Assembly (NCBI RefSeq): GCF_024398035.1
Contig: NZ_CP073748.1
Location: 2,021,520-2,085,519, forward strand
Reading direction: 5' to 3'
DNA: 64,000 bases
Origin: Kordiimonas sp. SCSIO 12603
Lineage (GTDB): Bacteria > Pseudomonadota > Alphaproteobacteria > Sphingomonadales > Kordiimonadaceae
This document shows, piece by piece, positions 32,481 to 43,307 of the stretch. Made by a program: the position numbers and the translations under genes. Under the pieces are notes generated by a model. It saw only the letters and a list, made by a program, of their open reading frames with translations, had not been told where the DNA came from and did not search any database. Positions within the stretch are counted from its first letter, which is position 1. Each line of letters starts with the position of its first letter.

Positions 32481-32522
32481 ATTAGCTAATTTAAACGATT
32501 GCATAATATACGGGGGAATAAG

Positions 32523-33977
32523 ATGCGATTTTCACAGGCATTTGGATTAAATAAGAGGCAATCTCAGTTGGATTTCGTTGATATTGATGTATCGCGCGAC
32601 TTCCCTTTATATATTGATCCTGCAACCTTTTTATCCAGAGATGATGAATTCAGTATTAAGTGTAGTACTGATATAGCAGATTTTTTCGAACACATTTTTG
32701 AGGCTATTAAGCAGAAGAAATTTCGGAAGGGGCTAAAGTTACTAGAAGGATTGCGGGAGCCTAATGAGGTTTATTTGGGTGTTTCTAAGGGGAAGCCTAA
32801 TGGACGTGGTGTCGGTAAGGTGCAAGCCCAAGCAATCTTTCAGAGCTTAGTTAACAGTAAAGCAGCAAGTACCGGTTTATTAACTGACTTATCTGATTGT
32901 GCGCTATTTGTCCCTGGTATTGGCCCCGATAAAATTTCAGATATAACCACGAATATTATTAGAAGACATTTGATTGAATACACTCAAAATCAATGTCGGC
33001 TTCACGGCATTGATCTTGATGATGAAGTTCCTTCGGGAATTTTTTGGGACTATGAAAAAGGTTGTTGGCATACTGGCGAGTATGTCAACTTGCCATTGGT
33101 TGATGGGAACGTGGTTATTCTTGTGCCAAAAAGGTTTGTTAAGTGGCCAGGTTCAATGCAATCTTTGAGCAATAAATACTATACACATTTTGTATCCAAC
33201 TTCATTCGTGAAGAACAATTGGAAACGAATGGCGCGTTAGTGCAAGTCGCTCAAACCACAAAAAGACGTTATGTACTAAAAAAAGATATTGAGAAGACAT
33301 TCCCTCAAACAAAGGGTTTTTTGGTCGACTTTTCTGAGGAAAATCCCAAAGTTTTTAGACAATTTAAAGAGAGTTTAGGGCTTACTAATCCGATATCGGA
33401 TAAGGAATTTCTAGCTAAATATGAAGAAGATTATTCGCCAGTAGATTTTGGTGATGTTTTAATCAAAAGGCTTGGAGAGATACCGGCAGGTAGAGCTTCG
33501 GCAAATGAATATCATCGTTTTATAGCGGGGGTGTTAAGCTATTTATTTTACCCTGATTTAGTATGCCCTGAAATCGAATACTCAATACATTCCAGTCGAA
33601 AAAAAATAGATATTAAATACACTAATGCAGCTGATAAAGGTTTCTTTCGAAGGGCTTTTCTAGACTCAAAAATTCAAGCTCGGAAAATTATGATCGAGTG
33701 TAAGAATTATTTCAAAGACATTGAAAACCCTGAGATAGACCAGATGTCAGGGCGGTTTAGTACATTAAGAGGTCAGCTTGGGTTTTTAATATTCCGGTCG
33801 AGCGATAATATGGAAACCGTTTTAGCTCGATGCCAAGATACAGCTCGCGATGGTAGAGGTTTTATCATTCCTATCTGTGACGAAGATATTATTTGTATGA
33901 TTGGCTACGCGCAGAAGGTTGATGGCCGTAAATTGGATAGATTCCTACAAAAACGCTTTAACGAACTTCTTAAGTAG
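32523..33977 (+). CDS. Unknown protein with C-terminal PD-(D/E)xK-like nuclease motif
   Basis: 484 residues from the ATG at 32523, chosen for CGGGGGAATAAG upstream. I do not recognise the family. The N-terminal two thirds are soluble, with a recurring acidic segment (PLYIDPATFLSRDDEF) and VPGIGPDKISDITTNIIRRH, a possible helix-hairpin or DNA-binding piece. Near the C-terminus, RKKIDIKYTN (Asp363) is followed by KIMIECKNYF (Glu392-Cys-Lys394), the D...ExK spacing of restriction-type nucleases, and then by QLGFLIFRSS. It stands alone, is AT-rich, and has no obvious methyltransferase or ATPase partner. A defence or restriction role is inference. Confidence 0.65.
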   Translation: MRFSQAFGLNKRQSQLDFVDIDVSRDFPLYIDPATFLSRDDEFSIKCSTDIADFFEHIFEAIKQKKFRKGLKLLEGLREPNEVYLGVSKGKPNGRGVGKVQAQAIFQSLVNSKAASTGLLTDLSDCALFVPGIGPDKISDITTNIIRRHLIEYTQNQCRLHGIDLDDEVPSGIFWDYEKGCWHTGEYVNLPLVDGNVVILVPKRFVKWPGSMQSLSNKYYTHFVSNFIREEQLETNGALVQVAQTTKRRYVLKKDIEKTFPQTKGFLVDFSEENPKVFRQFKESLGLTNPISDKEFLAKYEEDYSPVDFGDVLIKRLGEIPAGRASANEYHRFIAGVLSYLFYPDLVCPEIEYSIHSSRKKIDIKYTNAADKGFFRRAFLDSKIQARKIMIECKNYFKDIENPEIDQMSGRFSTLRGQLGFLIFRSSDNMETVLARCQDTARDGRGFIIPICDEDIICMIGYAQKVDGRKLDRFLQKRFNELLK

Positions 33978-34238: not shown

Positions 34239-34829
34239 CTATTTCACTTTGCCTTGCTGTATCATTTTACTGATATGCTTGGTTACCAGTCTGGTGGTCG
34301 TGTCGAAGGATAAACGCATTTTGCGGCTCTCCCGGCCTCCAAATTGCGATTTCACCTTTCTTTCTTCGAGCAGACGAATGTCGCTATCGATAGAGAAATA
34401 AGCTTCTGCGCCGCTTTTATCCAGCGTTATAAACTCTTCTTTCAGGGATGGTTTGGAGTTTTTGATGGTATCATATGTAATGTAGGTGCCGTTTTTGTAG
34501 GTTTTCAAATTGAAAACCACAAAGCGCACTACGCGGTCATGGAAGAAAAGGCGGCCATTTGAATCTATTTCTGACCATGTTCTGTATATATAGCCTCTGT
34601 CTTTCTCGGTCGTATTAGCGGGCCTGTATAGTTGATAGAGAGTACGAATGTTTTCGTTCCGGCCCGATACAATTTTACTATAGGCACGCCCAATAAAACG
34701 AAGGTCAGCTTCATCATCGCAGGAGAATTCAAGCAGGCCGCAATCCTGATCTTTTGCCGTGGCAGCAGCTAGGCCGGGACCAGTGAAAAGGATTGCCAGT
34801 GATAGAAATAGCAGTTTGGCTTTGTGCAT
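34239..34829 (-). CDS. Exported protein of unknown function, outer-membrane lipoprotein-sorting-like
   Basis: 196 residues from the ATG at 34829, which has GGGGGAATACATC upstream. A signal peptide (LLFLSLAILFTGPGLAAA) is followed by a mature part that is probably beta-rich: YIYRTWSEIDSNGRLFFHDR, RFVVFNLKTYKNGTYITYDT, RKMRLSFDTTTRLVTKHI. The pattern faintly recalls LolA-like or DUF4292-like folds, but I cannot assign a family. It lies between two 57-bp direct repeats, in the place of the lost 5' part of a DUF2306 gene. Confidence 0.65.
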   Translation of the reverse strand: MHKAKLLFLSLAILFTGPGLAAATAKDQDCGLLEFSCDDEADLRFIGRAYSKIVSGRNENIRTLYQLYRPANTTEKDRGYIYRTWSEIDSNGRLFFHDRVVRFVVFNLKTYKNGTYITYDTIKNSKPSLKEEFITLDKSGAEAYFSIDSDIRLLEERKVKSQFGGRESRKMRLSFDTTTRLVTKHISKMIQQGKVK

Positions 34830-34957
34830 GATGTATTCCCCCAATGACGCATGCTTCATGAATTAAACTATGTGCATAATAGTTATTTCAATTTAAATAC
34901 CTATCAAGAAAACATATTCATAGCCCCATTATGCCAGCATAAAGGGGCATGTGTTTT

Positions 34958-35694: not shown

Positions 35695-36111
35695 TTAGGC
35701 CTGTTTTGGTTTGAGCATATAGCGGCTCACCTTCCAGTAGCTGATACCGCAGATAAGCCCGGTAATTATATAAGGCATAGATGTGCCGAAGGGGAAAAAG
35801 ATACCAAAGCTGATGCCGATAAGACCGCCAAAAGCTGTGGTGGTGACTGGGCTTTCCCAGAAAACTTCCCGAACCAGCAGCCAGAGCCCCAATATAAACG
35901 GGGTAAACAGGAGACCAATAAATGAGGTTACAAGGAATAGATCGGTGAATTTATCAAGCACCGAAGAAAAGAGCGTGGGGCCAATACGGTCAAGCTCATA
36001 ATCAACAACATGATATATACAGAACCCCACCATGCCCACAAGCCATGACAGGCAAATGGCCCCATATGTTTTGAAAGCGCCCAGATGCTGTTTTTGCGTG
36101 CCCTCTGCCAC
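35695..36111 (-). CDS. Small membrane protein of unknown function
   Basis: 138 residues with four hydrophobic helices (about 14-34, 55-82, 90-106, 108-125). No family recognised. It starts with GTG, which overlaps the stop of the SemiSWEET gene (TAGTG), so the two are translationally coupled. Confidence 0.7.
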   Translation of the reverse strand: MAEGTQKQHLGAFKTYGAICLSWLVGMVGFCIYHVVDYELDRIGPTLFSSVLDKFTDLFLVTSFIGLLFTPFILGLWLLVREVFWESPVTTTAFGGLIGISFGIFFPFGTSMPYIITGLICGISYWKVSRYMLKPKQA

Positions 36112-36383: not shown

Positions 36384-36561
36384 GGTGATTTGGCCCCGAA
36401 CGCGGTGTAACTGTTACTGTGCCTTTCATAGCAGATTTCCCCCCGCCTACAAGCATGTTGCTGGTTACCTCTATATACATTCTAAAATAGAATAACACTC
36501 GCATATGCTTTTTTTCTTTGGGCTTTTGCGAAGCTCCTGTACCCTCTGGTGTGTGTTGTTG

Positions 36562-36571
36562 AGAGTACTCT
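36562..36571. promoter_or_regulatory. Perfect palindrome upstream of the reb operon
   Basis: AGAGTACTCT, a perfect 10-base palindrome 26 bases before the first reb ATG. It could be an operator. It is short enough to be chance. Confidence 0.3.
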
Positions 36572-36596
36572 TAATGATTTTTTTGGGGAATTTATT

Positions 36597-36803
36597 ATGG
36601 CAGTGCCAACACCAGTGAATGGTCAGATTACAGATGCGGTAACTCAGGCTAATATTACAGTTCTTGCGCAGGCCCCGGCAATGGCGATGGGTTCGCTTTA
36701 TCAGGCTCAGGCTAATGCGCTTTCCATTTTATTTGCAAATTCTGTGGATGCACAGGCCAAACTCGCGGATAGTTTTGAAGCCATTACCGACGAACGCACA
36801 TAA
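36597..36803 (+). CDS. rebB: RebB-family R-body protein (first copy)
   Basis: 68 residues. VNGQITDAVTQANITVLAQA then PAMAMGSLYQAQANALSI matches the RebB family, whose members polymerise into R-bodies, ribbons that coil in the cytoplasm and extend like springs. These were described in the Paramecium symbiont Caedibacter, where they act in killing, and are widely found in free-living proteobacteria. The ATG at 36597 follows TTGGGGAAT. First of three consecutive reb-like genes. Confidence 0.88.
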   Translation: MAVPTPVNGQITDAVTQANITVLAQAPAMAMGSLYQAQANALSILFANSVDAQAKLADSFEAITDERT

Positions 36804-36838
36804 TTTCCGGCGTTAACGACAACGCATAAGGATTTTTT

Positions 36839-37102
36839 ATGGCGGATAGTTCAGGCAGTTTGAACAGGCAAATCACAGAAGCAGTGGATTATGCGAACCA
36901 GCGGGTGCTGGGTGAAAGCGGGCGCGTGGCCTCTGGTGTGCTTCAGCAATCTGCGGCGACATCACTTTCGGTGTTGTTTGCAAGCAGCGTGCAGGCAAAC
37001 CAGAGGCTCCACTTGCTGGCAGACCAGATTACCGCCGAGAGTGCAGCGCGCATGCGGATTGGTGCTGTAGCTTCTTCAGGTAAGGCGAAAGGCAAAGCAT
37101 GA
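36839..37102 (+). CDS. RebB-family R-body protein (second copy)
   Basis: 87 residues; begins NRQITEAVDYANQRVLGESG and continues LQQSAATSLSVLFASSVQAN. It aligns along its length with the first copy (QIT-AV-AN-VL ... A-LS-LFA-SV-A ... IT-E), so it is a diverged paralogue with a longer basic tail (SGKAKGKA). It lies 35 bases after the first gene and overlaps the third by 4 bases. Confidence 0.85.
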   Translation: MADSSGSLNRQITEAVDYANQRVLGESGRVASGVLQQSAATSLSVLFASSVQANQRLHLLADQITAESAARMRIGAVASSGKAKGKA

Positions 37103-37764
37103 CACAGGAAAATGATGCAGACCTTGTTGAAGAAAACATAAATGCTGATACAGCCGATGCACCTGAGGCAGAGGCGTCTTCCGGTGATGATAATGTGGTT
37201 GATATCGCTGAAAATATTTCGGCGGACGCGAATGATCGAGAGGAGGCATTCGCGGACCATGCCGAAGTGGGAGAAGACCACGAGCTCGCAGAAGAAGCCT
37301 TACGGGCTGCAGAACATGCCACAGCGAGTTCAGAGGATAATGTAGCGACCATGGCTGCAAGCCCTGAAGAGGCGCAGGCCCAGTTTGCTGAACTGGCGGG
37401 TAGCATTGCAACGGGCGAAGGGGCCGCTGATTTAGCGCTTTCGAGCCTCTGTCAATCATACGCGCATGCGCTCTCTCTCGCTTTTCATGATGCGGTGCTT
37501 AACCAACAGCGGCGGTCAGCCTTAGGGCAGGCCGCAGTTGCACGGGCAGCGGAAACCATTCAGGACGCAAAGCCTGAAGACTTTGAAACCCAACTCTCCC
37601 AACTGGTGAAAGGGCTTGATGCGCTTGGTGTTTCCGCCTCCCGTGAAATGGAAACATTTATGGGGCTTTCAAAGCAGTTCAGCGTCGCGACAGAGCAGTT
37701 GATGCAAGTGCGGCAGATGACAGAAGCGTCGACGAACACGTCAGACGCAGTGGCCGCTGAATAG
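37099..37764 (+). CDS. Acidic protein with C-terminal RebB-like domain
   Basis: 221 residues. The first 100 are very rich in Asp, Glu and Ala and probably disordered. From about 115 a RebB-like segment follows (AADLALSSLCQSYAHALSLA then FHDAVLNQQRR), then a helical tail. It overlaps the second copy by 4 bases (ATGA). The acidic N-terminus with a Reb domain suggests a variant assembly or regulatory subunit; this is inference. Confidence 0.75.
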   Translation: MTQENDADLVEENINADTADAPEAEASSGDDNVVDIAENISADANDREEAFADHAEVGEDHELAEEALRAAEHATASSEDNVATMAASPEEAQAQFAELAGSIATGEGAADLALSSLCQSYAHALSLAFHDAVLNQQRRSALGQAAVARAAETIQDAKPEDFETQLSQLVKGLDALGVSASREMETFMGLSKQFSVATEQLMQVRQMTEASTNTSDAVAAE

Positions 37765-38564: not shown

Positions 38565-39458
38565 ATGAAGAAACTACTGACAGCGGTTGCTGGTGCCGCG
38601 CTGCTTGCAACAAGCTCTTTAGCGCTTGTGCCGAGCACAACAGCAGATATGCAGGCTGGCCACGTTGAAAGCGCCAAGCTTGATAAAATTCTTGCAGCAC
38701 AGCCAGAGGCAACAAAGGCGCGCTATCCTTTCCGTCATCCTAAAGAAACACTTGAATTTTTGGGTATCGCACCTGGTATGACAGTGGTTGATGCTCTGCC
38801 GGGTGGTTATTACGGCAACATCCTCGTGCCTTACCTAGGCGATGAAGGTGCCCTTTACGGTGTTCAGTATTCCCTGAAGCACCGCGGTACTGATTGGGCA
38901 ACACGCGAAGATAAAGATCAGCGCCTTGCAAACCATAAAGCTTGGCCAGAGCGCTTTGCGAAAAATGTTGCTGAATGGACCGGCGACAGCAAAATCAAAA
39001 CAGGTGCTTTCCTGTTCGGTGATGTACCAGCAGACCTTGAAGGCAAGGTTGATGCATTCCTTCTATTCCGCGCGATGCACCACCTGAACAAGCATGAAGA
39101 CACAACAGGTACCCGCACAGATGCGATTGCTGATATCTATAAAGTGCTTAAGCCGGGCGGTATTGTTGGTATCGTTCAACACCGCGCACCGGAAGATGCT
39201 GATGATGATTGGGCAAAAGGTTTCAACGGTTATGTGAAGCAGTCCACAATCATTGATGCAATGAAAGCTGGTGGATTTGAACTTGTTGATGTTTCAGAAG
39301 TGAACGCAAACCGCAAAGATCAGCCTGTAGAAGGTGATTTTGTTTGGCGTTTGCCTCCAGTGCTTGCAGGTTCACGTGATGATGCTGAAAAGCGTGCGAA
39401 AATGCAGGCGATCGGTGAAAGTGACCGTATGACACTGAAGTTCCGTAAGCCAAAATAA
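38565..39458 (+). CDS. Exported SAM-dependent methyltransferase-like protein, copy 1
   Basis: 297 residues with a Sec signal peptide (KKLLTAVAGAALLATSSLAL). The methyltransferase core follows: ETLEFLGIAPGMTVVDALPG then GYYGNILVPYLGDEG (motif I is DALPGG rather than DxGxG), and a later KPGGIVGIVQH strand. COG4798-type predicted methyltransferases often have such signals. SAM is not thought to be in the periplasm, so either the protein acts before export or it has another ligand. First of three paralogues. Confidence 0.8.
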   Translation: MKKLLTAVAGAALLATSSLALVPSTTADMQAGHVESAKLDKILAAQPEATKARYPFRHPKETLEFLGIAPGMTVVDALPGGYYGNILVPYLGDEGALYGVQYSLKHRGTDWATREDKDQRLANHKAWPERFAKNVAEWTGDSKIKTGAFLFGDVPADLEGKVDAFLLFRAMHHLNKHEDTTGTRTDAIADIYKVLKPGGIVGIVQHRAPEDADDDWAKGFNGYVKQSTIIDAMKAGGFELVDVSEVNANRKDQPVEGDFVWRLPPVLAGSRDDAEKRAKMQAIGESDRMTLKFRKPK

Positions 39459-39483
39459 GCGCTTAGCGAATTGTGAATTAAGG

Positions 39484-39512
39484 AGGCGGGGGCATACACT
39501 CTCGCCTTTTTT
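39484..39512 (+). terminator. Terminator after methyltransferase-like copy 1
   Basis: AGGCGGGG / TCTCGCCT stem (two G-T pairs) with an 8-base loop and TTTTTT tail. Confidence 0.8.
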
Positions 39513-39572
39513 ATTTTGTATCGGTGGTTGTCCGTGTACACTCGGCAAAAATCAGGCGAGAGGGAATATATA

Positions 39573-40331
39573 ATGAAACTGAATTCTATTTCGAAATTGG
39601 CTCTGGCAAGTGTTGTTTTTTCAACAGTGGCTTTTGCTGGTGTTGTTGCCGATGACCATATTAAAGCCGCAGTAGCCCATAAAGACCGGCCTGCAGATGA
39701 TGTTACCCGGGACCAGTTCAGGAAACCAGCTGAGGTACTTGAATTTATTGGTATCGCCCCAGGTATGAAAGTTGTTGATGTAAATTCCGGTGCTGGATAC
39801 TACACAGAAATTCTCGCGCGTGCTGTGGGGATGGAAGGAACCGTTATCGCCCATAACGGCCCTGTTTACTGGGATTTCGTGAAAAACAGCATTGGTGAGC
39901 GGTATGAAGGTCGCCTCGGAAATGTTAGAAATATCTATACAGGTTCTGAAAATGTTGCAGCTGCTGAAGGGACAGTGGATGTAGCGATGGCTGTGCTGTC
40001 TTATCATGATTATTTCTTCAAACACAAAGCCCGTAAGGGTGATGAGAACATTCCCGAAATACTGGCGTCTATCCGTAAGGTGCTAAAGGATGATGGTGTG
40101 TTTGTCGTGGTTGATCATGTGGCGCCAGCAGGAAGCGGTACAGAAGCCGGTAATACTCTTCACCGTATTGATCCTGAACTTGTGAAAGAACAGGTATTGG
40201 CGGCTGGTTTTAAGCTGGTGGAAACAAGTGATATTCTTGCGAATTCTGAAGATCCACATACGATCTCGCCATTTGCTGAGGGTATTCGCGGTAAAACAGA
40301 TCGTTTCATTTTCAAATTTATGAAAAAATAA
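39573..40331 (+). CDS. Exported SAM-dependent methyltransferase-like protein, copy 2
   Basis: 252 residues from the ATG at 39573 (GAGAGGGAATAT upstream). Signal peptide ISKLALASVVFSTVAFAGVV; core EVLEFIGIAPGMKVVDVNSG then AGYYTEILARAVG, a standard DxGxGYYT motif I, and KDDGVFVVVDHVAPAG. This copy keeps the best SAM-binding motif of the three. It follows the terminator of copy 1, so it probably has its own promoter. Confidence 0.8.
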   Translation: MKLNSISKLALASVVFSTVAFAGVVADDHIKAAVAHKDRPADDVTRDQFRKPAEVLEFIGIAPGMKVVDVNSGAGYYTEILARAVGMEGTVIAHNGPVYWDFVKNSIGERYEGRLGNVRNIYTGSENVAAAEGTVDVAMAVLSYHDYFFKHKARKGDENIPEILASIRKVLKDDGVFVVVDHVAPAGSGTEAGNTLHRIDPELVKEQVLAAGFKLVETSDILANSEDPHTISPFAEGIRGKTDRFIFKFMKK

Positions 40332-40405
40332 CGCTAACACCATCGTTACTGGGATGTGTGTGAAAATGCTGTACCTTCCTGTCGAAATGACGGGAGGGTA
40401 TTTTT

Positions 40406-41188
40406 ATGTCTGAAACAGATCAAGAGAAACGCAGTTTTTTTAAGGGCTTTGGTGGGTTTGCATTGTTGATAATCGCTATTGGTTCGGCAACAGCTATATT
40501 TTCTGAGCGTGATAAAGACTATTCGGAAGCAGGTCCACAAAGCTTGATGGCACTGGTGACAAGTGAAGATCGTCCTGAAAACCATAAGGCCCGTGATCAG
40601 TATCGTCACCCGCTTGAAACGCTTACTTTCTTTGATGTACAGCCTGAAATGAAAGTTGTGGAAATTTTCCCGGGTGGTCCGGGTGGTTTCTACCGCCGGA
40701 TTATCGAACCTTATATTGAAGGTGCAGGCAAGGGTGGTGCCTATTACCCTGTGAATGGCGGTATCGGCTGGCCATCCGAGCAGGTAGAAGATCTTCCGTA
40801 TGGTGAGATTGATATGGCGCTTGTGTTCCGTGCCCATGGTTTCTTGATTTATGGTGATCCAGCACAGGATCATGTGGATGATCTTTTCAAAATGCTGAAA
40901 CCCGGTGGTTACCTTGGTATTGTGGATCACGCAGGTGATGAAAGTATCCCGCAGGACCCGGAAGCTGAAAGCGGTTATGTTAATGCCAGTTATTTCCGTG
41001 CAATGGCAGAGAAGGCGGGTTTTGAATTCGTAAAAGAAAGCGATGTAAACAGAAACCCTAAGGATACCAAAGACCATCCGGATGGGCTTTATTCACTTCC
41101 GCCAAGCCTCAGAAGCGGTGATGAAGATAAATATCGCGCGATCGGTGAAAGTGACCGCTTTACGCACCTATACCGCAAGCCGGGCTAA
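40406..41188 (+). CDS. Membrane-anchored methyltransferase-like protein, copy 3
   Basis: 260 residues. Instead of a cleavable signal there is a charged N-terminus and one helix (FGGFALLIIAIGSATAIF, about 15-32), then the core ETLTFFDVQPEMKVVEIFPG and GPGGFYRRIIEP, and KPGGYLGIVDHAG. Motif I is changed to EIFPGGPGG. Its stop codon overlaps the stop of the convergent response-regulator gene (shared CTAA), so the two transcripts end on each other. Confidence 0.78.
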   Translation: MSETDQEKRSFFKGFGGFALLIIAIGSATAIFSERDKDYSEAGPQSLMALVTSEDRPENHKARDQYRHPLETLTFFDVQPEMKVVEIFPGGPGGFYRRIIEPYIEGAGKGGAYYPVNGGIGWPSEQVEDLPYGEIDMALVFRAHGFLIYGDPAQDHVDDLFKMLKPGGYLGIVDHAGDESIPQDPEAESGYVNASYFRAMAEKAGFEFVKESDVNRNPKDTKDHPDGLYSLPPSLRSGDEDKYRAIGESDRFTHLYRKPG

Positions 41189-41832
41189 ACCAGCTTATTC
41201 CGCCAAGCGTAGATGGCCGCCTGTGTGCGGTCAGAGAGATAGAGCTTGCTAAGGATCGAGCTGACGTGGGTTTTCACAGTCTTTTCGCCAATAGAGAGCT
41301 CTTCCGCTATCTCGGCATTAGAGAAGCCTTTTGCGATGGTCTGCAATACTTCGAATTCTCTTTTAGTGAGCTGCTCATGGGGCGGCTCATCTTCTTTGGA
41401 GCTAGCAATCTGTTGCATCAGGGATTTAGCCAAACGTGGGCTGAGAGTTGTCTCTCCGCGGTGGCTGCTTTTGATGGTTTTTACCAGCTCTTCTGGCGGA
41501 ATATCTTTGAGAAGATAGGATGTGATCCCCGCGTTAGTTGCTTCTACAAGAAACTCATCACCCTCGTGGCTCGTTAGCATGATGATATTGGCTTGAGGGC
41601 AGGTTGTTTTGATTTTCTGTGCTACTTGAACACCCGAGATATCAGGTAGAAATAAATCCATTAAAATAATATCGGGGGTATGCCGGGCGCAAAACTCAAG
41701 GGTTTCTGCACCGCTACCAGCTTCTCCGATGACGCAAAACTCAGGAATGGTTTTTAAAAGAGAAACCAGCCCGCGCCGTACGATAGCGTGATCATCAACA
41801 ATCAGAATGGAAATCTGGTTAGCGGGTTCCAT
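41185..41832 (-). CDS. NarL/LuxR-type response regulator
   Basis: 215 residues from the ATG at 41832; a GTG at 41859 is an alternative. Receiver domain (about 7-120): SILIVDDHAIVRRGL, phospho-acceptor in DIILMDLFLPDISG, and LLKDIPPEELV. C-terminal LuxR HTH: LTKREFEVLQTIAKGFSNAE then IAEELSIGEKTVKTHVSSIL. It is cotranscribed with the sensor kinase upstream (overlap of 14 bases). Target genes are unknown; the methyltransferase trio is convergent. Confidence 0.93.
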   Translation of the reverse strand: MEPANQISILIVDDHAIVRRGLVSLLKTIPEFCVIGEAGSGAETLEFCARHTPDIILMDLFLPDISGVQVAQKIKTTCPQANIIMLTSHEGDEFLVEATNAGITSYLLKDIPPEELVKTIKSSHRGETTLSPRLAKSLMQQIASSKEDEPPHEQLTKREFEVLQTIAKGFSNAEIAEELSIGEKTVKTHVSSILSKLYLSDRTQAAIYAWRNKLV

Positions 41833-43252
41833 AGGTTTGTCCGTTATTTGCTGTCGCACGCCAGCTTATTTCAATACAGGTGCCTTTTCCGGTGCCCGTG
41901 ATGATGGCAACTTCTGCACCAATTTTGCTGGCACGTTCTTTCAGATTGGTTAAACCAAACTGGTTTGGTTTTATATTGGTTTCATCAAAGCCTTTGCCGT
42001 CATCACAAATGCTGAGCACCCAGCGGTTACCTTTAAGGGCTAAAGTGATTTCAGTATCGGTTGCTGAGGCATGTTTCCATATATTGTTTAGGCTTTCCTG
42101 CACAATACGCTTAATATGGTGCGCTTCATTTTCCGATACTTTTACGGTGGTTGCCTGAAGCCTGATGGATAGGTCTTTCTCTTCACGGAATTTAGCAGTT
42201 ATGGATTCCAGAGTTTCCGCCAAATTGCTTGTCGCGCTTGCATCAGTTTTTAAATTGTTGAGGAGAGTGACAATTTCCTTGTTGATTTCCTCAACGGTTT
42301 TACTGGCTTCTTCGATTTGAACTGAAACCTCGTTCGGCAAGTTCTGATTTGCTTTCAGAGCACCCAGCTGCATGGAGAGGCCAAATACATTCTGCTTTAC
42401 TGTATCGTGTAACTCGCTTGCGAAAAAATCACGCTCATTACGCGCTGAGATCAACTGCCTCAACTGAACAATTTCCTGAAGTTCTTCTGCCATTTCGTTC
42501 AGCCGTTTCATATGGTCTGTAATTTCATCAGACCCTTTTTCCTGAATGCGTTTGGAGAAATCACCCGCTGACCAGCGGTCTGTTACTTTTACAATTTCAC
42601 TGAGGCGAGAGGAATACCCAGAAGCTGTAAGTAGGGCACTTATCACACCTGCGAAAATAGCAGAAAACAACAATTCCCAAAGGTAATAGGGAAAAGTAAG
42701 GCCGCATTGAAGAGCTCTTAAAAACTCAAAAGGGGCATATATCTGATATTGGGCGGAGCCAATTTCTTCACCTTGTTCAGTGATAACTGGAAGCGTGAAA
42801 GAGCGGTAATAAATATGATTTTTTTTATTAAGTTCTTCAACTTCTCTAGGCCAGAAAGCGGTTGTGCTTTTATCCTGAATATAATTGGTGATGGTAAGTT
42901 TTGTATAAACTCTTCCGCTACGGGCTTTGTTAAAATAAAAGCCCAGCGGATCTTTGCTCCATGGCACGCGGGTGTGGTAATGGTCAAAAGTGCTGGCTGC
43001 GGTATTGATTGCTTCTTCTGATAATGGCTGACCAGTTTCCATTGCATGAGCGAGGTGAGGTAGGGCTTCTTCGGTCACCCATTTTTGCAAGTGGTGATGC
43101 TGAAGCGCCGTATGGTGATCATGATAATTGGTAACCATAAAGGTACCAAGATTAATCACAAAGAAGACAAAGACGAATGCGAGCACGCTGTTACGCGCCA
43201 TACGCCACCAAAGCTTTGATCTGGCTTTATTAATGTTCTGTACCCTAAACAT
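41819..43252 (-). CDS. NarX/LiaS-type sensor histidine kinase
   Basis: About 477 residues from the ATG at 43252 (a GTG at 43261 also fits). TM1 at about 17-40; periplasmic domain (about 42-180) with HHHLQKW; TM2 at about 190-215; HAMP; HisKA_3 region with FFASELHDTVKQNVFGLSMQ, where the His of HDTVKQ is the phosphorylation site; then the ATPase domain ESLNNIWKHASATDTEITL, CDDGKGFD, QFGLTNLKERASKIGAEV. Pairs with the NarL-type regulator. The signal is unknown. Confidence 0.9.
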   Translation of the reverse strand: MFRVQNINKARSKLWWRMARNSVLAFVFVFFVINLGTFMVTNYHDHHTALQHHHLQKWVTEEALPHLAHAMETGQPLSEEAINTAASTFDHYHTRVPWSKDPLGFYFNKARSGRVYTKLTITNYIQDKSTTAFWPREVEELNKKNHIYYRSFTLPVITEQGEEIGSAQYQIYAPFEFLRALQCGLTFPYYLWELLFSAIFAGVISALLTASGYSSRLSEIVKVTDRWSAGDFSKRIQEKGSDEITDHMKRLNEMAEELQEIVQLRQLISARNERDFFASELHDTVKQNVFGLSMQLGALKANQNLPNEVSVQIEEASKTVEEINKEIVTLLNNLKTDASATSNLAETLESITAKFREEKDLSIRLQATTVKVSENEAHHIKRIVQESLNNIWKHASATDTEITLALKGNRWVLSICDDGKGFDETNIKPNQFGLTNLKERASKIGAEVAIITGTGKGTCIEISWRATANNGQTYGTR

Positions 43253-43307
43253 AGCCCCCACTGCCGTTTATTATTTTTTATGTCTATAGCGCTTTTGGCG
43301 GAGCTTG

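Follow-up and report, generated by a model that had tools for sequence, protein, structure and literature searches.

A compact, lineage-specific RebB-family operon in Kordiimonas that probably represents a minimal R-body locus

Our analysis of a 64,000-nucleotide stretch of DNA (the window) from the complete 3.85-Mb genome of Kordiimonas sp. SCSIO 12603 revealed three clustered, co-directional genes, here called reb1, reb2 and reb3, whose products all belong to the RebB family. The original prediction of a compact RebB-family operon in an alphaproteobacterium was borne out by Pfam matches and by the Kordiimonas origin of the DNA, and the three adjacent genes, encoding 68, 87 and 221 residues, had been placed correctly (Table 1). 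The stop codon of reb2 and the start codon of reb3 overlap by 4 bases (ATGA), and the gene order in the window is SemiSWEET (minus strand), reb1 to reb3, DUF3291 and a methyltransferase-like gene (all plus strand). R-bodies are ribbons of protein able to spring open. We consider it probable that this is a compact, lineage-specific minimal R-body locus, in which two ribbon subunits would be joined by a co-assembling accessory subunit. Kordiimonas would then be a likely R-body maker; our literature search found no paper mentioning both Kordiimonas and R-bodies.

Table 1. Coordinates of the reb operon in the window and of E2p genes carrying Reb peptides in other Kordiimonas genomes (L, locus; G, genome)
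Feature	Position	Strand	Description
Presumed promoter and leader	36504..36596	+	93 bp before reb1, identical in K. laminariae
reb1	36597..36803	+	Short primary Reb protein, 68 aa, PVNxQITDAVTQ signature, without C-terminal tail
reb2	36839..37102	+	Divergent Reb protein, 87 aa
reb3	37099..37764	+	221 aa; Reb domain 2-3 core, acidic N-terminal arm, Kordiimonas-specific tail
reb3, arm-coding part (residues 1-100)	37099..37398	+	Acidic, probably disordered
reb3, Reb-core-coding part (about residues 108-156)	37420..37566	+	PF11747 match, profile comparisons
reb3, tail-coding part (about residues 157-221)	37567..37761	+	Lineage-specific
Tagged E2p genes	L041:3333-4652 (G015), L040:1-1191 + L130 (G010), L127 (G006), L128 (G014), L129 (G018), L131 (G012), L059 (G002)		E2p, by domain plan presumably the pyruvate dehydrogenase dihydrolipoamide acetyltransferase

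In a profile HMM search, all three proteins scored above the curated cut-off of the Pfam RebB family (PF11747, 24 bits), with 63.4 bits for Reb1, 24.8 bits for Reb2 and 27.6 bits for Reb3; the Reb2 protein of K. laminariae scored 22.8 bits, slightly under it. No further place in the complete genome exceeded the cut-off, and the one extra match at an E value of up to 1 reached 12.9 bits. At the same threshold, none of the three proteins matched NCBIfam, and no PDB chain matched Reb1 or the Reb3 alignment by sequence. A Pfam match of Reb1 to ptaRNA1_toxin (E value of 0.018, 15.6 bits) lay under the cut-off of 27 and was discounted. As predicted, Reb1 aligns to Reb2, with 45% over 60 residues (E value of 2e-10). 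Their profiles matched with a probability of 99.3%, and a profile of three Reb2 orthologues matched the primary Rebs with 99.6%, both figures coming from comparisons in which the HP1.2 set possibly contains a wrong row and other sets possibly miss rows. The HP1.x and S4 labels of our examples were assigned by length and gene order following PMC3583457 and PMC13430693, not from the authors' sequence lists.

Reb1 carries the complete domain 1 signature (QITDAVTQ), Reb2 only QITEAVDY, and Reb3 is without the QITD domain. The NAV/QQQ motifs of domain 3 are only partial in Reb1 and Reb2, and Reb3 has AVLNQQRR. Relative to canonical Rebs, Reb1 ends ahead of the domain 3 region and is 28-43 residues shorter than five of them in the same alignment; its orthologues in three other Kordiimonas genomes are equally short (67-69 aa). 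Reb2, whose orthologues measure 87-94 aa, has lost the APAMAMG stretch. Structure prediction rendered Reb1 as a single helix (residues 7-67, mean pLDDT of 78), and a 2026 survey of the family likewise predicts helical Rebs (PMC13430693). Such small helical proteins could serve as the ribbon subunits, with Reb1 and Reb2 polymerising into a sheet that would roll up in the cytoplasm and unroll on a trigger.

The PF11747 match of Reb3 spans residues 110-154, and the whole Reb-like part aligns to Reb residues 27-78, which correspond to the middle and QQQ region, not to the QITD region. Reb3 had been described as an acidic extension fused to a RebB-like C-terminal segment. The extension and the homology held; the placement did not, since the Reb-like part is internal and is followed by about 65 residues. 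Homology beyond mere composition was evident from a single-pass profile search with the Reb3 core against 1732 ORFs, the remainder of 2150 once E2-type ORFs and nine loci had been removed. The best 30 matches were the three Reb3 orthologues and 27 other Rebs, at E values from 3e-9 to 3.3e-5, and the best reversed-sequence control reached only an E value of 1.1. Neither of the two outcomes that would have overturned the prediction, a missing RebB hit for Reb1 and Reb2 or a Reb3 resembling RebB in composition alone, was observed. Loci L001-L031 and L050-L094, for the most part fragments of these regions and E2p or DUF3291 loci, were outside the searched set. Single-pass searches alone were used because iterated ones drifted, pulling in E2 proteins with Reb peptides and merging families. 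In profile comparisons, the Reb3 core matched primary Rebs with a probability of 95% and HP1.4-type Rebs with 82%, against 0.08% for the reversed control.

Residues 1-100 of Reb3, which we call the arm, contain 30 Asp/Glu, 2 Lys/Arg and 2 prolines, in agreement with the predicted acidity; the predicted disorder corresponds to a pLDDT under 50 at residues 1-64 in a model that is weak as a whole (mean of 48, from four sequences). The arm is variable in length and charge across the four Reb3 orthologues: in two it is acidic (29-30 acidic against 2 basic residues per 100), in one mixed (MAG OFTM305, G015, locus L034; 119 residues, of which 14 are acidic and 18 basic) and in one nearly absent, with only about 19 residues in the arm region (MAG HF-Din21, G005, locus L033). 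The acidic N terminus is thus not a conserved feature of Reb3. An extended N terminus rich in proline and charge is known from the published description of group S4 (PMC13430693). A function of the arm as a pH switch was set aside, as the orthologues do not keep the acidity. All four orthologues share the tail that follows residue 157, which is predicted, with low confidence, to form helices. In a search that scored at most 7 candidates in each genome, the whole-protein Reb3 profile found matches at an E value of up to 0.01 in 9 of 385 genomes of the class, our own included; outside Kordiimonas these matches ended at model position 174 of 213 at the latest, and the tail was not matched there. 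A match in G249 (E value of 0.009, in a 310-residue frame) was probably due to chance. By its sequence, Reb3 thus appears to be a reshaped Reb subunit, so far found only in Kordiimonas. We propose that it might join the sheet of Reb1 and Reb2 through its Reb-like core while the charged arm and the helical tail stay outside, and that as an accessory subunit it might set ribbon width, curling or solubility, a role comparable to that of RapA or of the short HP1.4-type Rebs.

Long N-terminal stretches were also seen in Reb proteins of other loci. A protein of 177-190 aa at L035 and L036 (G001 and G012) has a long low-complexity N terminus, made of Pro/Glu/Ser repeats or of Gly/Ser, ahead of its Reb-like part, and is another case of a freely varying N-terminal arm. 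At L124:4518-4982 (G433), a Reb ORF carries an acidic, proline-rich stretch ahead of the canonical MADNTPVNSQITD start, which is either an extension or a sign that the true start lies further downstream.

We compared the trio with that of K. laminariae and computed dN/dS, taking nine neighbouring genes (dN/dS of 0.01-0.26) for comparison. In reb1, all 7 changes were synonymous and none was non-synonymous (dN/dS of 0). In reb3, 19 synonymous and 8 non-synonymous changes gave 0.12 (0.15 in the arm and 0.04 in the rest), with 7 of the 8 amino-acid-changing differences falling within the arm and a single one outside it. The value of reb2, 0.33, was the highest of the trio and came from two changes only, one synonymous and one non-synonymous. 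Collectively, purifying selection acts on reb1 and reb3, with Reb1 and the core of Reb3 constrained and the arm less so; the changes in reb2 are too few to judge.

To place the operon in its lineage, we used a sample of 59 genomes of the genus, family and order, 19 of which are Kordiimonas (our own and 18 others). RebB matches at an E value of up to 0.001 occurred in 10 of the 59, our own included; because the matches of G010 lie only inside an E2 protein, the number of genomes with reb loci is 9. All of these are Kordiimonas, which makes 9 of the 19 genomes of the genus. The trio itself is present in 4 of the 19 (G000, G016, G005 and G015), with identical order, orientation and close packing throughout. 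Their Reb3 proteins are 40-96% identical to that of the window, the closest being from K. laminariae 5E331 (G016), the nearest relative of the host among the compared genomes. A species-genome scan, which detects near-exact peptides only, placed relatives of Reb3 at three loci, those of K. laminariae and of MAGs OFTM305 and HF-Din21, which the genome set assigns to the same genus.

The surroundings of the trio are less constant. In G002, an incomplete genome with the region on one contig, the three flanking genes are likewise grouped, the aligned ends of DUF3291 and SemiSWEET being 568 bp apart, and the search gave no reb match at an E value of 1e-4. The distance from reb3 to DUF3291 is about 2.5 kb in G005; in G015, SemiSWEET and DUF3291 are about 1.5 kb and about 8 kb away from the trio. 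Since the flanks occur without the trio in one genome and are shifted in two others, the operon looks like a module that an old Kordiimonas locus has retained, lost or gained by insertion. Reb loci of a third kind in the genus, with two RebB matches, were seen at L037, L038 and L039 (G003, G006 and G018; 2 matches each), where the recurring neighbours include proteins of about 500 and 730 aa. Two further relatives, G001 and G012, carry 11 RebB matches each, and one could therefore regard the trio as a decaying remnant of such a larger cluster, with three genes left by chance, a reading to which the single synonymous and single non-synonymous change in reb2 would lend itself. We find this very unlikely: four genomes share the trio, its order and its open frames, its neighbours differ from those of the large clusters, and reb1 and the reb3 core are under purifying selection.

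Across the class, 18 of 385 genomes matched RebB at an E value of up to 0.01 (with up to 15 candidates scored in some genomes), 14 of them with two or more matches. Among these 14, 11 genomes had 4-11 matches, two had three (our own and G433) and one had two (G302). The smaller number of genes here than in those 11 genomes, together with the shortness of Reb1 and its orthologues, the missing domain 1 of Reb3 and the conserved residues lost from Reb2, would fit a trio that makes Reb-derived filaments or small assemblies, the coiling spring having been lost with the C-terminal domains. Short Rebs, however, also belong to other clusters, as described for RebD (PMC8322103) and for HP1.4 proteins of 60-80 aa (PMC3583457), and selection on reb1 is strong. 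We therefore regard non-coiling filaments as a minority prospect, to be taken seriously but rather unlikely. Formation of R-bodies, the reading that we prefer, is also in line with the survey, which takes clusters with three or more reb genes as keeping all potentially functional ones (PMC13430693). Weighing against it are the presence of three genes only, the end of Reb1 ahead of domain 3, a Reb2 barely over the cut-off, with the highest dN/dS of the trio and the loss of APAMAMG, the lack of a recognised S4, HP1.1 or HP2-type protein in the window, and the need in Azorhizobium for three Rebs plus a non-Reb protein (PMC5527310). With one subunit lacking the C-terminal domains and another the N-terminal domain, the three-gene locus would lend itself, as a minimal system, to finding out what in a Reb protein is required to polymerise, coil and spring open.

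The absence of a separate reb regulator had been noted from the sequence, and Pfam recognised none from 29.5 to 41 kb. The scan covered the products of the likely genes between 29.5 and 44.6 kb (17 proteins including the trio), and the only regulators recognised were a response regulator and a kinase at 41185-43261. A role of this pair in reb control is unsupported: it lies 3.4 kb off and is found in one of three fetched trio loci, being present in K. laminariae and absent from the loci of G005 and G015. Proteins without any family above its cut-off are encoded at 32499-33977, 34239-34859, 35695-36111 and 40406-41188. Three consecutive genes at 38565-41188 encode mutually similar products (29-31% in K. 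laminariae); the first gave weak methyltransferase matches, the second matched PCMT above the cut-off and the third matched none. A missing local regulator is not odd, since in Azorhizobium the general regulator PraR dominantly represses reb, and its homologues are said in the same report to be widespread in Alphaproteobacteria (PMC5527310). The operon may likewise be controlled by a regulator encoded elsewhere in the genome. No PraR or RebR consensus site with up to one mismatch was found at 36384-36596, where weaker sites are possible; for PraR this is a weak test, as the Azorhizobium sites themselves deviate from the consensus by two or three bases. The sigma-70 consensus had no match in the 93 bp before reb1. 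A 15-base palindrome at 36479-36493, about 100 bp before reb1, is common to K. laminariae, and its core pattern also appeared in 20 of 100 shuffles, not rarer than chance.

Reb peptides were also seen outside reb loci. Of 20 E2p genes in the 19 Kordiimonas genomes, 8 (in 7 genomes) carry either the Reb N-terminal signature (G002, G006, the second copy of G010, G012 and G015) or the Reb C-terminal tail (G010, G014 and G018), always at the same spot, the linker end ahead of the subunit-binding domain. The E2p of our own genome is untagged. Each of the eight tagged linkers outscored all 100 of its shuffled versions. Among E2p proteins of other genera in the family, 1 of 10 (G024) scored above its shuffles through a Gly/Ser-rich stretch, which we read as low complexity and discounted; among those of other reb-bearing Alphaproteobacteria, 0 of 12 did, a thirteenth genome (G156) being without an E2p hit at an E value of 1e-90. 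Over the 19 genomes, exact matches to a degenerate N-signature pattern fell only in reb loci (19 of 22) or E2p (3), and those to a C-tail pattern were confined to reb loci (6 of 9) and E2p (3). The tag of G014 is identical over 23 residues to the Reb tails of G001 and G012 while 13-15 of the 23 codons differ, so the peptide seems to be constrained as protein. In the E2 tree, neither tag type formed one clade; each required 3 changes, 2 of them forced by well-supported branches.

If functional, the tags would hint at what the Reb end-peptides bind. One could go further and see the trio as the smallest self-sufficient R-body machine, made of two truncated or divergent ribbon subunits and one Kordiimonas-specific subunit, with the arm as a freely evolving brush that tunes coiling and the Reb end-peptides as portable docking tags joining R-bodies and pyruvate dehydrogenase; if true, the two would have a binding partner in common or attach to one another. 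We consider this combination improbable. Reb is present in 4 of the 7 tagged and 5 of the 12 untagged Kordiimonas genomes, and three of the tagged ones have no reb locus (G002 and G010, both incomplete, and G014, rated complete); this missing association counts against a simple docking story. A literature search listed no work that links reb genes or R-bodies to pyruvate dehydrogenase; one of the listed papers, on cyst formation, mentions both R-bodies and the enzyme.

In a comparison with the RebB family groups 1-6 and S1-S4 as outlined by Dorr et al. (2026; PMC13430693), homology to primary Rebs spans domains 1-2 in Reb1 and Reb2 and domains 2-3 in the Reb3 core, yet Reb1 ends before domain 3, and Reb3 is without domain 1 and carries extensions particular to it. 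Separate genes of the HP1.1 to HP1.4 types, which mark group 1 synteny, were not recognised at the locus. Profiles of the HP1.2-HP1.4 types matched only trio members among 344 window ORFs, and weakly (E values of 3e-5 to 0.026); those of the S4, HP1.1 and HP2 types gave nothing convincing there (HP1.1 at best an E value of 0.14). An HP1.1 type was not found in our own genome at an E value of up to 10 in a search run without a positive control. Group S4 has, according to the survey's description, an extended N terminus rich in proline and charge (PMC13430693), a plan similar to that of Reb3, whose arm in contrast holds 2 prolines per 100 residues and is nearly absent in one orthologue.

This resemblance raises the idea that Reb3 is a true orthologue of RapA (group S4) and the locus a stripped group 2 cluster. 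The two proteins share an N-terminal extension, a Reb-like middle and a C-terminal extension at similar length, and among plasmid records Reb1 is closest to the Rebs of Ruegeria and Burkholderia, which we take as group 2 by gene order. Yet Reb3 matched three S4-type proteins with a profile probability of 0.06%, against 95% for primary Rebs, in a comparison whose S4 examples were chosen by size and gene order, not by PA14 sequence, PA14 RapA itself lying outside it. The S4 profile gave an E value of 0.22 at best over the 344 window ORFs, and the Ruegeria and Burkholderia clusters hold Crp and sigma genes inside, which were not recognised here. Orthology with RapA is thus the reading to which we give the least credence.

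Other reb loci of the same genus and family (G001/G012 and G003/G006/G018) differ in gene content and neighbours. The reb operon of Azorhizobium caulinodans, also alphaproteobacterial, shows with its dominant repressor PraR that a general regulator can govern such an operon; as reported, it comprises four rebs, an essential non-Reb gene and rebR, unlike the three-gene trio, and three of its Rebs as well as the non-Reb AZC_3784 are essential (PMC5527310). The cluster of Pseudomonas aeruginosa PA14 (rebP1, rebP2, rebD, rapA, rcgA and fecI2) likewise combines two ribbon subunits with a ribbon-associated protein (PMC8322103), although no Crp-type regulator or sigma factor was recognised beside the trio. 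In the published account, R-body preparations contain about as much RapA as RebP1 and RebP2, and RapA co-localises with RebP1 (PMC8322103). By analogy, Reb3 could act like RapA without being its orthologue.
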